Below, piece after piece: positions 10,899-26,154 of a stretch of 35,512 nt of DNA (its first letter is position 1; every line of letters starts with the position of its first letter). The position numbers were made by a program, and so were the translations under genes. A model generated the notes under the pieces. That model ran no database searches. It was not told the DNA's origin and saw only the letters and a program-made list of their open reading frames with translations. The DNA is from Clostridia bacterium (GTDB taxonomy: Bacteria; Bacillota; Sulfobacillia; DUSP01): contig DUSP01000163.1 in assembly GCA_012842575.1 (NCBI GenBank), positions 1 to 35,512 of the forward strand, in the 5' to 3' direction.

Positions 10899-11540
10899 AT
10901 GGAACTCTTATCCATTGGAGAAGCAACAAAGAGATTAGGCGTACACCCGAATAGGCTCCGGGCCTGGGAGAAACAGGGACTGATCAAGTCCGTGCGGCTG
11001 CCCAGCGGCCAGCGGAGGTACCCGGTCGAGGAAATCAACCGCATTCTAGGGACAGGGGGAATAAAGGTAGAGCCGGACGCGGTTATCTTCTACGCCCGGG
11101 TGCCCACAAAGAAGCAGGCCGATGCCGGAAATCTGGAGCGCCAACTGGAAAGGCTGCGGGGATATGCAGAAGAGAAGGGCTACCGTGTAGTGGCGGAGTA
11201 TTCGGATGTGGCTTCCGGTTTAAACCAGAAACGCCGGGGCCTGGAACGGGCGCTGAAGGCAGCCGAACGGGGCGAGTTCAAGAAACTGCTCATCGAATAC
11301 CCCGACCGGCTGGCGAGGTTCGGATACACCTATTTAGAGCGCCATTTAAAGCACTGCGGTGTGGAGATAGAAATCACTTCGCAGAAAGAGACTGAGGACG
11401 CGCATACGGAACTGGTTCAGGATTTGCCGGCCATAGTGACCTCTTTTTCGGCCCGGCTGTATGGTGCGAGGGGTGGCAGGAAAATCCGGCAGGGCTTCCG
11501 GGAGCTGATAAGGGATGCCGAAGAAGCAGGAGAAAGATAA
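10899..11540 (+). CDS. tnpA: IS607-family transposase/resolvase TnpA, probably catalytically defective
   Basis: MELLSIGEATKRLGVHPNRLRAWEKQGLI (HTH) then FYARVPTKKQADAGNLERQLERLRGYAEEKGY...EYPDRLARFGYTYLERHLKHCGVEIEI; the expected YARVS reads YARVP. Confidence 0.9.
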   Translation: MELLSIGEATKRLGVHPNRLRAWEKQGLIKSVRLPSGQRRYPVEEINRILGTGGIKVEPDAVIFYARVPTKKQADAGNLERQLERLRGYAEEKGYRVVAEYSDVASGLNQKRRGLERALKAAERGEFKKLLIEYPDRLARFGYTYLERHLKHCGVEIEITSQKETEDAHTELVQDLPAIVTSFSARLYGARGGRKIRQGFRELIRDAEEAGER

Positions 11541-13203
11541 ATTTAGCTTTACAGTATGCGGGGAGTTCTTTCCGGAGGTCTACCCAGCCCACCGATCTTC
11601 TAAGTGGAGCCGAGGTGAGGAAGACCCGCTGGCTACGGAGATGCGCCTCTTCTGTGCCTGCGTGCGGTGGGCATTCAACCGACTTCTGGAAGGCGCTTCC
11701 CGTGATGAGATCAAAAAACTTGGCCAGGAACTTTTCGGACTTAACTCCCGGTATGCGGACGACGCCAGGCTTAAGGCGCAGGCCCTGTTGGACTCCCAGA
11801 AAGAGTTACTGGAGCTGGAGATTGAGGAGACGGAAAAGAAGCTGGGCCGGGCGAGACAAAAGCTCGGCTTGGCTATGAGGAAGCTGGTGGAAGCTGAGAA
11901 GAAAGATGTTACCCCGGACATCGCTGAAAAGCTCAAGCTGGCAGTCAAGGGGCGGAACAGCCGGGTAACATCTTTAGAAAAGAAGCTGGCCGAGCTGGAG
12001 GCCCACCAGGAGAACGGCACGATACCAAAAGTAGTTTTCGGTGGCGGAAAGCTCTGGAAAAAGGTCTGCAAAGGCCGGGCCACACGGGAGGAGTGGCGGG
12101 CCGCCCGCAAAAACCGCCTCTACTCCCGTGGAGACGAGACCAAGGGCGGTAACCCCAACATCAAGGGATTTTTTGACGGCCAAGCTTTTCGCTTAGAGGT
12201 TTCCATTTCCCACCTTTCCGAACAGACAGGCACGGATAAACTCGGTCGTCCCAAGATGAGCCGCGCCCCAAGGGTAGAGGGCAGGTTGTGGTTGCCGGAA
12301 AAACACCGCGGCCTGGTCCGGATATGGCTGGCTATGAAGTTGCCTTACACGGTAGAGCTGGTTCGCACCCTGGAGGGCCGCTACCTGGTCCATTTAACGT
12401 TTGATCTTGGCAAAATACGGGAACCCGACTTCGCTAAAGGTTGTTTAGCCCTGGACGCCAATCCTGATGGAGTGGCCTTATGTAATGTAAACGCTTCAGG
12501 CCAACCGGAGCCGTGGCCAGAAGGTTTCAGTGTCTCGTACCCTAGCAATCTGGGCAAGTATGAAGGAGAGTTTCAGGTCATCACTTACCCGAACGGTTTC
12601 CTGTATATCAGAGTACCCGACCTCGCATACACTTCCGGCTTCCGGCGTGACTACCTGATAGGTGTTTTAGCCAAAGTAGTGGTAGACATAGCCTTTTTCT
12701 TGGGCAAGCCCATTGCCTTGGAGGATCTTGATTTTGGCAAAGACAGGCTGGACACCAATAAGAAGTTTAACCGCATGGCTTCGAACTTTCCCTTTGCGAA
12801 AATGGTGGAGGCGGTGTGCTGGAGGGTGGCCAAGGAATGGGTGCCCTTTAAACTTGTGCCTTCCCGGCACACCTCCACCATCGGGCACTGGAAGTACGTG
12901 AGGCGTTATGCGGTTCCAGTGCATTGCGCGGCGGCGTTGAGCATAGGCCGCCGGGCTATGGGCTTTAAGGAACGGATGACTAAAGAGCTTAAAAGACTGA
13001 TAATGCAAATCAAGCAAAACCTGACCCGAGAAGTCGATCCTGATACACCGAGGGAAGGAGAAGGGATGACCCGTGGGGTCAGGGCCTGCTTGAGGCGGTT
13101 GGACAGGAAGCTCCCGGTGTACAGCGGGCTTGCCCGTTGGCAACAGGAGGCGTACTACTCCGTCTGGCACGACTTAAGGCTTTTGGCCCTGTCCTTACGG
13201 TGA
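11515..13203 (+). CDS. tnpB: TnpB-related RNA-guided nuclease-like protein
   Basis: RuvC-I-like CLALDANPDGVALCNV, RuvC-II-like KPIALEDLDFGKDRL, RuvC-III position YAVPVHCAAALSIGRRAMGFKE; no CxxC zinc-ribbon pairs seen. Confidence 0.85.
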   Translation: MPKKQEKDKFSFTVCGEFFPEVYPAHRSSKWSRGEEDPLATEMRLFCACVRWAFNRLLEGASRDEIKKLGQELFGLNSRYADDARLKAQALLDSQKELLELEIEETEKKLGRARQKLGLAMRKLVEAEKKDVTPDIAEKLKLAVKGRNSRVTSLEKKLAELEAHQENGTIPKVVFGGGKLWKKVCKGRATREEWRAARKNRLYSRGDETKGGNPNIKGFFDGQAFRLEVSISHLSEQTGTDKLGRPKMSRAPRVEGRLWLPEKHRGLVRIWLAMKLPYTVELVRTLEGRYLVHLTFDLGKIREPDFAKGCLALDANPDGVALCNVNASGQPEPWPEGFSVSYPSNLGKYEGEFQVITYPNGFLYIRVPDLAYTSGFRRDYLIGVLAKVVVDIAFFLGKPIALEDLDFGKDRLDTNKKFNRMASNFPFAKMVEAVCWRVAKEWVPFKLVPSRHTSTIGHWKYVRRYAVPVHCAAALSIGRRAMGFKERMTKELKRLIMQIKQNLTREVDPDTPREGEGMTRGVRACLRRLDRKLPVYSGLARWQQEAYYSVWHDLRLLALSLR

Positions 13204-13510: not shown

Positions 13511-14890
13511 ATGGGGGTCATCTACATGGACAACGCAGCGACTTCCTGGCCCAAACCTCCAGGAGTCGAGGAGGCTATGCTCCTTTATCTAAGGGAGGAG
13601 GGCGGTAATCCTGGAAGATCGGGCCACAGGCTATCGCTGGCGGCCTCCAGGCGCATATTTCAGGTCAGATTAGCTCTTGCGGAGTTTTTGGGAGTCAAAG
13701 ACCCTGCGAGGATAATATTTACCCAGAACGCCACCGAAGCCCTCTCCCTTGCACTCATAGGGTCCCTGAACCCCCAAGACCGTGTCCTCTCCACCGCCAT
13801 AGAACATAACGCGGTTTCGAGGACTCTTTCATTCTTAAGGTCATGTGGAGTTGACGTCGAGATCATCTCGGTTTCACCTAGGGGATCCCTGGATGTTACT
13901 GGCCTTGAGTCCGCTTTGAAAAGAAAGAAGACCAAAATGGTGGTGGTGAACTGGGCTTCGAATGTGGCCGGGTGGACGATCGATCTGGACGAAGTCTCGG
14001 GCTTGGTGAAGAGGTACGGTGCGCTGCTACTGGTGGATGCAGCACAGGGGCTCGGCCATTTACCCCTTCTCCTCTCCGACCGCATAGACGACCGCATAGA
14101 CATGCTCGCCGCATCGGGACATAAAGGACTGCTCGGGCCCCAGGGGACCGGCTTTCTTTACCTTGGGCCTTCATCTAATCCTAGACCGCTCATTTACGGC
14201 GGAACCGGGAGCGCCTCCTCCTCCGACGAGCAGCCGGGGTTCCTACCGGACAAATACGAAAGTGGTACCCTTAACGGACCAGGAATCGCCGGTTTGGGAG
14301 CGGGCCTCGGTACCTTGTTAAAAGAGGGAGTAATAGAGGTCGCGAGAAAAGAAGCGTGCCTTGCGGCGACGCTTGCCAAAGGGCTCATGGAGATTCCCGG
14401 AGTGAAACTACACGGGGCTTGGAGCGAGGAGAAGCGTGTTTTGAGTTGGCTCCCTCAGCATGGCGCTGAAGTACGAATGCCAGCATCCAAGAACCCCGTC
14501 ACACCTGCCGACGATGGTACGGCTGCCGAAAGTTCAGGAGGAGTCGTCAATGCCCGAACCCCTCTCGCCGGTACTGATGTCGGAGATGGCCGTACACCCG
14601 TTACTACCAGGGCCCCTGTCTTGGGGGTCCCCGGCATACCTGATGCCGTCGCTGTCGTGTCGATGACATTGGAGGGCTGGGATCCGGCGCAATTGGCATT
14701 CGAGCTCGATCGACGTTATGGCATAATGGTGAGGGCGGGATTACACTGTTCTCCGTGGGCGCACCGAACATTGGGAACATTCCCAACGGGAACGGTGAGG
14801 TTTAGCCCCGGACTTTATACGACGCCAGACGAGATCGAAACCGTCGTTTCCGCTGTTAAGGAGTTGGCTATCGAAAGGAAAGGCGGGTGA
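13511..14890 (+). CDS. Cysteine desulfurase / class V aminotransferase (TIGR01977-like)
   Basis: YMDNAATSWPKPPGVEEAM, ATEALSLAL, DAAQGLGHLP, SGHKGLLGPQGTGFLYL, AGLHCSPWAHRTLGTFPTGTVRFSPG; next to selD and yedF. Confidence 0.92.
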   Translation: MGVIYMDNAATSWPKPPGVEEAMLLYLREEGGNPGRSGHRLSLAASRRIFQVRLALAEFLGVKDPARIIFTQNATEALSLALIGSLNPQDRVLSTAIEHNAVSRTLSFLRSCGVDVEIISVSPRGSLDVTGLESALKRKKTKMVVVNWASNVAGWTIDLDEVSGLVKRYGALLLVDAAQGLGHLPLLLSDRIDDRIDMLAASGHKGLLGPQGTGFLYLGPSSNPRPLIYGGTGSASSSDEQPGFLPDKYESGTLNGPGIAGLGAGLGTLLKEGVIEVARKEACLAATLAKGLMEIPGVKLHGAWSEEKRVLSWLPQHGAEVRMPASKNPVTPADDGTAAESSGGVVNARTPLAGTDVGDGRTPVTTRAPVLGVPGIPDAVAVVSMTLEGWDPAQLAFELDRRYGIMVRAGLHCSPWAHRTLGTFPTGTVRFSPGLYTTPDEIETVVSAVKELAIERKGG

Positions 14891-14897
14891 CGACGTA

Positions 14898-15977
14898 ATG
14901 CGCGACGAGGACAACGACCGCGACCTGCGAAGTGACGACATCGCGAGGCTCACTTCTATGGTCAGGGCTTCTGGATGAGCGGCCAAAGTAGGTCCCAAGA
15001 CCCTGTCGCAGGTACTGCGGCAGCTTCCGAAAATTGAAGATCCACGCCTTCTGGTGGGGGCCGACACTTCCGATGATGCGGCTGTATACCGGATAGATCA
15101 AGACACCGCCCTGATTCTGACCGTGGACTTTTTCACGCCCATAGTGGACGAGCCTTATGACTTCGGCCGGATTGCCGCGGCAAATGCGTTGAGCGATGTA
15201 TACGCCATGGGCGGCGAGCCCGTTTTGGCCCTGAATATCCTCACATTTCCATCCTGTATGGATGCTGCAGTGCTAGGCGAAATCCTAAAGGGCGGCTCAG
15301 ACAAGATGAAGGAAGCGGGCGTATACATCGTCGGAGGACACACCGTGGACGATGTGGAGCCGAAGTATGGGTTTACGGTGTTAGGTTTCGTTCATCCTGA
15401 CCGGGTACTGACGAATTCCGGAATTCTACCGGGAGACCTACTTGTGCTTACCAAGCCCCTTGGTACGGGTATAGCGACCACCGCTCTAAAGGCGCGGATG
15501 TGCGATCCTATGCTAAAAGACCGGGTTGTAGAGTCCATGGCGGCGCTCAACGACGTGGCCTCAAAGACAGCGTCCCGGCTCGGGGCTCATGCGTCCACTG
15601 ACATCACAGGGTTCGGACTCCTCGGGCATTCTCTGAAAATGGCAGAGCTCGCCCATGTAACTTTAGAATTCTGGCTAGACAAGTTACCCGTGTTCGGAGG
15701 CGTCTTGGACCTTGTGAAGGAGGGGCTCATTCCGGGGGGTGCCTACAGGAACAAGGAGTATGTAGGGGAAAACGTTTGTTTCGGAACGGATATTTCGGAT
15801 GACGAAAAAATGATACTATTCGATCCACAAACCTCAGGCGGCCTCCTCGTGGCGATTCCCCCCGCGGGTGCCGAAGAAATGGTCAAGCTACTTCCCGGTA
15901 ACGCGTGGATTGTAGGACGGGCTCTTCCGTACGACGGTACGCCATTGCGATGCGTCCGTTTACATGGAGACTCCTAA
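14898..15977 (+). CDS. selD: Selenide, water dikinase SelD, selenocysteine-containing (UGA at 14976-14978)
   Basis: Track gives only 15054-15977. In-frame ATG at 14898 reads MRDEDNDRDLRSDDIARLTSMVRASG(TGA)AAKVGPKTLSQVLRQLPKIEDPRLLVGADTSDDAAVYRIDQDTALILTVDFFTP...; TGA sits at the catalytic Cys/Sec of the SGC/UAAK motif. Confidence 0.92.
14976..15023 (+). promoter_or_regulatory. UGA(Sec) codon plus candidate bacterial SECIS hairpin
   Basis: CTGTCGCAG (15003-15011)-GTA-CTGCGGCAG (15015-15023): 9 pairs including one U.G wobble, G-first loop, 33 nt between the UGA and the loop. Confidence 0.75.
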
Positions 15978-16088
15978 GAGGCACAAGGAGCGACTATGAT
16001 TGCGATTAGAATGCGATTGGAATCGTGAGGATCGATTATAAACGCGGTTATGACGCGGTTATGATTCGGGAAATACGGAGGGTTCTCC

Positions 16089-16844
16089 ATGGGTGGTTCT
16101 ATAGACGGTTCTGGAATAACCCGAGCGGATCGGCAGAACTCCGAGGGTGTGCTCATGGGTGGTTCTATAGATGGTTCTGGAATAACCAAGGTTGTGGATG
16201 CTCGGGGCCTAGCTTGTCCTATTCCGGTGGTAAAGACCAAGAAAGCTCTGGAAGAGGTTTCCCTGGAAGTCTCCGAAAAAAGCCCCTTTACCTTGGTAAC
16301 GCTGGTAGATAACGATATGGCCGCCCAAAACGTATCCAGGATGGCCCAAAACTCAGGCTACGAAGTCTCGGTGGAAAAGGACGGAGCGGCTTACCGCGTG
16401 ATAATCAAAAAAGGGTCCGAAGAGGCATCCCCGGCACTTGCACCCGGACCTTCGGTATCCCTGGAGGCTCCCGAAGTGGGAGAGACCCGTAAAGCGGAGA
16501 CTCATAAAGCGGGGACGGTATTCGTGATTTCTTCCGACACACTGGGGACGGGCGAGGAAGAACTTGGGACCGCTCTGATGTCGAGTTTTCTCTTTGCGTT
16601 AAGTAACGCCGATAACCCACCTTCGACCCTTATCTTCATCAACCGGGGCGTGTATATCACTACAAAAGGCACCCGACATGAGGAAGCCCTTAAGACCCTT
16701 TCTTCAAAGGGTGTCAACGTAATATCCTGCGGTACCTGCCTTGACTACTATCACCTCAAAGACCTCCTCATTTTCGGGGTCGTCGGTAATATGTATGGGA
16801 TAGTCGAAGAGATCTTGAGCGCCCAAAAGGTCATTTGGATATAG
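16089..16844 (+). CDS. yedF: Selenium metabolism protein YedF (TIGR03527-like)
   Basis: VVDARGLACPIPVVKTKKALEE (TusA/SirA-like CPxP) and C-terminal VFVISSDTLGTGEEELGTALMSSFLFAL...VISCGTCLDYYHL. Start may be 16089 or the duplicated ATG at 16155. Confidence 0.92.
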   Translation: MGGSIDGSGITRADRQNSEGVLMGGSIDGSGITKVVDARGLACPIPVVKTKKALEEVSLEVSEKSPFTLVTLVDNDMAAQNVSRMAQNSGYEVSVEKDGAAYRVIIKKGSEEASPALAPGPSVSLEAPEVGETRKAETHKAGTVFVISSDTLGTGEEELGTALMSSFLFALSNADNPPSTLIFINRGVYITTKGTRHEEALKTLSSKGVNVISCGTCLDYYHLKDLLIFGVVGNMYGIVEEILSAQKVIWI

Positions 16845-25230: not shown

Positions 25231-26154
25231 ATGGACGGTAACTTCCGGAACGATGAGCGTGAATTCAAACAATGGGGTGTAATATCTCATCCGATTCCGG
25301 GTCGTTCGGGGAAGCCTCGGAGTAAAGGCATCACCATGGTGATGGACAAAGGGTTGGGTTTGGGCGAGACCAGGGATATCCTCGAGGTGGCCCACCCTTA
25401 TGTCGATCTCTGGAAAATGGGGTTCGGCACGTCCATGCTTTACCCACACCGTTTCTTAAGGGAAAAGATTGCCGTCGTTTCGTCATACGATGTCTACATT
25501 TACTTTGGTGGAACGCTGCTCGAGATAGCCTACTACCAGAGGAAGCTCGTGGATTTCCTGACGATGGCGAAAGACCTTGGCATCTGCGTGGTTGAGGTTT
25601 CGGACGGCACTTTGGATATATCGGAAGATGAACGCGGGCGTATCATCGACACCGCGATATCCAAAGGTTTTTTTGTTCTGACGGAGGCCGGGAAGAAGAA
25701 CCCCATTCGGCCTATCACCGCTGGCGAAGTGCTGGCGAGGACAAAGGCGGACTTGGGACGCGGTGCTTGGAAGGTCATCTTGGAAGGGAGGGATTCGGGT
25801 AGAGGAATAGGGATATATGACGTTGAGGGGAACCTTAAAGAGGCGCTTCTCGAAGAGGTCATCGTCGGCCTGACAAAAGAAGGCCTGATGTGGGACCTGA
25901 TTTTTGAGGCCCCCCAACCTCATCAGCAAAGAGAACTGTTGCTCAGACTCGGCCTTAATGTGAACTTGGGGAACGTCAACCCGCGTGACGTAATAACCTT
26001 AGAAGCCATGAGGGTCGGACTGAGGAGTGACACCTTTCGACTGGTCTTAAACACCCGGGATGAGAGGCAGCCTGCTTTAAGCACGAGCATGGAGAGATCC
26101 GGGGAAGGCGGGAAAAGGGAGAGGAAAGAGGGGTCTGTATGCGTCGTCCGTTAG
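25231..26154 (+). CDS. comA: Phosphosulfolactate synthase-like (ComA family)
   Basis: KPRSKGITMVMDKGLGLGETRDILEVAHPYVDLWKMGFGTSMLYP...YYQRKLVDFLTMAKDLGICVVEVSDGTLDI...FEAPQPHQQRELLLRLGLNVNLGNVNPRDVITLEAMRVGLRSDT. Confidence 0.9.
   Translation: MDGNFRNDEREFKQWGVISHPIPGRSGKPRSKGITMVMDKGLGLGETRDILEVAHPYVDLWKMGFGTSMLYPHRFLREKIAVVSSYDVYIYFGGTLLEIAYYQRKLVDFLTMAKDLGICVVEVSDGTLDISEDERGRIIDTAISKGFFVLTEAGKKNPIRPITAGEVLARTKADLGRGAWKVILEGRDSGRGIGIYDVEGNLKEALLEEVIVGLTKEGLMWDLIFEAPQPHQQRELLLRLGLNVNLGNVNPRDVITLEAMRVGLRSDTFRLVLNTRDERQPALSTSMERSGEGGKRERKEGSVCVVR

Follow-up and report, generated by a model that had tools for sequence, protein, structure and literature searches.

The window analysed here, the whole 35,512-nucleotide stretch of DNA, carries a selenium gene cluster in which selD lies between genes for a cysteine desulfurase family protein and for YedF. 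The features on which the analysis turns are the following.

13511-14890, + strand: cysteine desulfurase family protein (TIGR01977, above cut-off), ending 7 nt before selD
14898-15977, + strand: selD, selenide, water dikinase, 359 residues with selenocysteine (Sec) as residue 27 (TIGR00476 match)
14976-14978, + strand: in-frame TGA at the active-site position SG-U-AAK, read as Sec from alignment and conservation
14991-15002, + strand: weak remnant of a hairpin in a proximal position, GGUC-CCAA-GACC, whose loop does not open with G
15003-15023, + strand: predicted bacterial SECIS hairpin, a 9-pair stem (15003-15011/15015-15023) with apical loop GUA (15012-15014)
16089-16844, + strand: yedF, sulfurtransferase-like selenium metabolism protein (TIGR03527, above cut-off; TusA and DsrE domains)

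The preliminary description of this locus had proposed that the selD frame extends upstream of the listed open reading frame (ORF) through a single TGA. This is borne out by the sequence: between ATG 14898 and the stop at 15975-15977 the frame is open but for 14976-14978, which is codon 27, and the peptide across this codon reads ...MVRASG-U-AAKVGPKTLSQVLRQLP... A start at ATG 14961 is also possible. Over positions 1-309 of the 311-position TIGR00476 profile the full protein scores 388.8 bits (cut-off 125), the match beginning upstream of the TGA; AIRS and AIRS_C domains were found, and the active-site motif G-[CU]-x-x-K is present as SG-U-AAK. Identity to the other SelD members found is 42-55%. 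The mechanically produced ORF list, as the preliminary description also pointed out, starts SelD at GTG 15054, and the catalytic N-terminal segment is thereby lost. This ORF call is an annotation artefact; N-termini missed in such a way are a familiar annotation error.

The neighbours of selD are those named earlier. The cysteine desulfurase, whose family assignment is broad, scores 292.6 against the 525 required for the SclA selenocysteine lyase, and it is a probable source of selenium mobilised from cysteine or selenocysteine. Its profile matches in two separate stretches; approximately residues 320-385, between the conserved parts, are rich in Pro, Thr, Ala and Gly and look like an insertion. 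The yedF gene begins 111 nt 3' of selD or slightly further: its conserved domain begins after a second, repeated start, ATG 16155, which is probably the true one. The region 16001-16200 contains short tandem repeats with an 11-nt unit, before yedF, and the MGGSIDGSGIT start, which is repeated in the yedF frame. Among 80 GTDB loci, a relative of the desulfurase lies near selD in 20 and a relative of yedF in 21. Directly upstream of the selenium cluster is an IS607-type element (10899-13203), in which a MerR-resolvase transposase (NF033518, 184 bits) overlaps a 562-aa TnpB-like protein that reaches 60.5 of the 100 bits needed for TnpB and has no Pfam match. Further along the window, at 25231-26154, this bacterial genome encodes a phosphosulfolactate synthase ComA (TIGR03849, 298 bits, above cut-off).

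The TGA had been assigned to the residue that is Cys or Sec in SelD proteins, and the alignments agree with this placement. The window SelD aligns through the TGA with the solved SelD chains 3u0o and 2yye/2zod, and at the TGA position the 2yye record (RSSGCAAKVGP) has Cys, as expected of a selenoprotein gene, in which an in-frame TGA aligns with Cys or Sec of homologues. We searched 40 relatives and the window's own genome, taking E below 1e-70 as a strong SelD match. Exactly one TGA was present in 31 of 32 strong matches, which come from 28 genomes of the class; the sole exception is a Cys-SelD, whose genome belongs to the same order and has a Sec-SelD as well (Cys-SelD at L023, G002:C218; Sec-SelD at G002:C180:15210-16145). 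The alignment with SelD proteins suggested by the preliminary description gave TGA at this column in all 25 rows, the window row included, and across these sequences G26, residue 27 and K30 are invariant. In a wider set, assembled from the loci of the class search and GTDB species, the site codon is TGA in 70 genes and TGC or TGT in 7.

These data bear on the possibility that a Cys codon was misread as TGA in sequencing or assembly. Cys-SelD genes do exist, one of them (L023) in the same order, and a TGC or TGT at 14976 had been named beforehand as the observation that would overturn the Sec reading. Such an error is contradicted by the conservation of TGA across the class: the codon is kept at the same position in 31 of the 32 strong matches, so that for practical purposes 14976 cannot be a sequencing error, and the SECIS hairpin described below is found here and not in the Cys genes. 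We consider this explanation extremely improbable.

The preliminary description had also made its reading depend on selA, selB and selC being present elsewhere in the genome (2.47 Mb in 220 contigs, 92.8% completeness). All three were found in one contiguous selC-selA-selB cluster: a tRNA-Sec with anticodon UCA lies at G000:C43:15041-15133, and immediately downstream on that contig come selA (542 bits, cut-off 268) and selB (345 bits, cut-off 242). The genome thus holds selA, selB, selC and selD, the set that accompanies a selenoprotein gene. Reading of the UGA by another route, with TGA generally used as a sense codon or by plain readthrough, would likewise yield the full-length protein; we found no support for either, TGA ends other genes here, among them the adjacent desulfurase (14888-14890), and tRNA-Sec and SelB together with a SECIS provide the simplest sufficient route. 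Such a route is accordingly given almost no weight.

A 9-pair hairpin with loop GUA had been described 33 nt after the UGA. We recovered this hairpin; the distance of 33 nt runs from the UGA to the loop, and the stem begins 24 nt after the UGA. The bacterial SECIS model, as summarised in PMC13188914, sets the stem at 4-16 bp and the loop at 3-9 nt, with G as the first or second loop nucleotide; it further specifies a UGA-loop distance of 16-37 nt and a minimum free energy of at most -7.5 kcal/mol. The window hairpin lies within all of these sequence and energy limits, with a 3-nt loop, a 9-bp stem, G as the first loop nucleotide, a spacing of 33 nt and an energy of -12.8 kcal/mol for the isolated stem (-13.5 in a 30-nt fold); its spacing is near the long end of the permitted range. 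The SECIS-like layout proposed for it is further borne out by a codon shuffle and by covariation.

When the 81-nt segment was folded whole and coding was ignored, z was only -1.24, so we used a test with the amino acids fixed, in which the peptide was kept and codons were drawn from selD's own usage. Of the sequences recoded in this way, 0.34% formed 9 pairs and 0.28% reached an energy as low as that of the real hairpin (z -4.2). Among all 339 30-nt codon windows in selD, the four with the lowest z-scores lie on this hairpin, which is therefore beyond chance. None of the Rfam SECIS models matched the window segment. RF00031 (SECIS_1), which did not reach its gathering threshold at the window, was silent in all control genomes too, so its silence here is no evidence against a bacterial SECIS.

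Comparison across SelD genes points the same way. Covariation was assessed in 38 Sec-SelD genes, selected for a peptide that reads Q-[VM]-[LM]. In the stem, 86.3% of cells are paired, versus 73.1% after shuffling, and the covariation score is 0.379 versus 0.133. Doubly changed cells number 36, versus 8.0 after shuffling and 4-17 in slid-partner controls, counts that are not independent events because the sequences are related. In several genes Cys, Ser, Gly or His stands in place of the Arg that follows QVL, and the opposite codon shifts with it so that the pair is kept. In a strict scan, a hairpin conforming to the model was found in 73% of Sec-SelD genes versus 13% expected, and in none of the 7 Cys-SelD genes; 19 of the 70 Sec-SelD genes have no hairpin that fits the strict perfect-stem model. 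Mean hairpin z is +0.71 in Cys-SelD and -1.39 in Sec-SelD; the peptide of the Cys genes is nearly identical and the stem is missing. Assignment of 15003-15023 as a SECIS that would recruit SelB is thus supported.

A nonsense mutation that inactivated selD, leaving only the product of the 15054 frame or none at all, would turn the gene into a pseudogene, and the ORF list does give a shortened product from GTG 15054. Against this, selD contains no further stop or frameshift, its invariant residues are all retained, the Sec machinery is intact, the RNA hairpin is maintained and the search of this genome and the 40 relatives returned no second SelD at SelD-level score from the genome itself. We regard a pseudogene as highly implausible.

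The strict scan of the 70 Sec-SelD genes further revealed that SelD SECIS hairpins occupy two slots, with the loop at either about +17-20 or about +33 nt from the UGA. The distal slot (loop start 30-37 nt after the UGA) is used in 35 genes and the proximal slot (16-23 nt) in 20, of which 5 have both; a single gene has its conforming hairpin solely between the slots. The contrast can be seen, for example, in L031 and L040-L044 against L018, L026, L054 and L108. The window selD uses the distal slot. Its proximal remnant at 14991-15002 is weak and its loop does not begin with G, which puts it outside the SECIS model; with 4 pairs, loop CCAA and no model match it was ruled out as the SECIS of this selD. 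The proximal slot serves other SelD genes, and in the 38-gene set its stem covaries too, more weakly. A short literature search found no description of this two-slot alternation, which we present as a mildly new side finding.

We are thus nearly certain that the window carries a selenoprotein selD whose UGA at 14976-14978 is decoded as Sec by means of tRNA-Sec, SelB and the hairpin. The gene, its codon, the hairpin, their conservation and the machinery genes are all observed here; decoding efficiency, chemistry and selenium supply we infer. During translation, SelB recruited by the hairpin at 15003-15023 would bring tRNA-Sec to the UGA of the same mRNA, and Sec27, near Lys30, would make up the flexible active site. 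The enzyme would convert selenide and ATP to selenophosphate, which would pass through SelA into SelD's own Sec and probably also into a YqeB/YqeC selenium-cofactor pathway. The adjacent desulfurase is probably the selenium supplier, and YedF is a linked factor.

Sec-SelD and FdhA are the most widespread bacterial selenoproteins (PMC1794560), so that the feature in the window is ordinary: it is an ordinary Sec-SelD of a long-known bacterial selenoprotein family. With the Sec-SelD of other bacteria (TIGR00476; PMC1794560, PMC4561486) it shares the family, the active-site position, the single in-frame UGA, a bacterial SECIS directly downstream and the co-occurrence of SelA, SelB and SelC, and no essential difference separates them. 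It also shares the family, a similar site peptide and in part the AQVLR segment with Cys-SelD proteins (L023 from the same order; L066, L071, L086, L103 and L127 from Bacillales), but those have a Cys codon in place of the TGA and no SECIS hairpin. Likeness to the bacterial SECIS consensus (PMC13188914) extends to the 3-nt loop, the 9 pairs, the G that opens the loop, the 33-nt spacing and the energy.

Selenium use elsewhere in the genome was examined family by family. In clostridial relatives, Sec is frequently present in FdhA, HdrA and FlpD (FrhD-type) (PMC1794560). Here, no in-frame stop was found in FdhA or in the three FlpD (FrhD-type) genes, and three HdrA-type reading frames have Cys in all four YCSxxCC motifs. 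A GrdA search of the genome gave no match, and its control likewise had none anywhere. A candidate second selenoprotein at G000:C66:14254-14718 was rejected, its TGA being the ordinary stop that ends an iron-sulfur subunit. No SelU above cut-off was found in the genome. A single 826-aa protein (L137:6415-8892, - strand; G000:C133) combines YqeC, a MocA-like cytidylyltransferase domain and YqeB, and the genome encodes several molybdenum hydroxylases; SelD, YqeB and YqeC together mark the selenium-cofactor trait (PMC9312934). With FdhA, HdrA and FlpD in Cys forms or free of stops, SelU not found and YqeB/YqeC present, there may be few selenoproteins here besides SelD, or none, among the families examined in an assembly that is 92.8% complete. 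This possible near-sole status is a second side finding, also mildly new. That SelD is the organism's only selenoprotein, with selA, selB and selC kept for its one residue and selenophosphate really serving the YqeB/YqeC cofactor, is a bolder proposal that we think rather unlikely. SelD is reported as the lone selenoprotein of organisms that make selenouridine as well (PMC1794560).

The present analysis corrects the annotation of a selD gene that had been called without its catalytic segment. The gene is, besides, a further independent example of how a SECIS shapes the coding sequence that contains it: where amino acids under the stem have changed, their pairing partners have changed with them. 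If the bolder proposal were true, a sole SelD coupled to a selenium cofactor rather than to selenouridine would be useful for testing why Sec decoding is retained.
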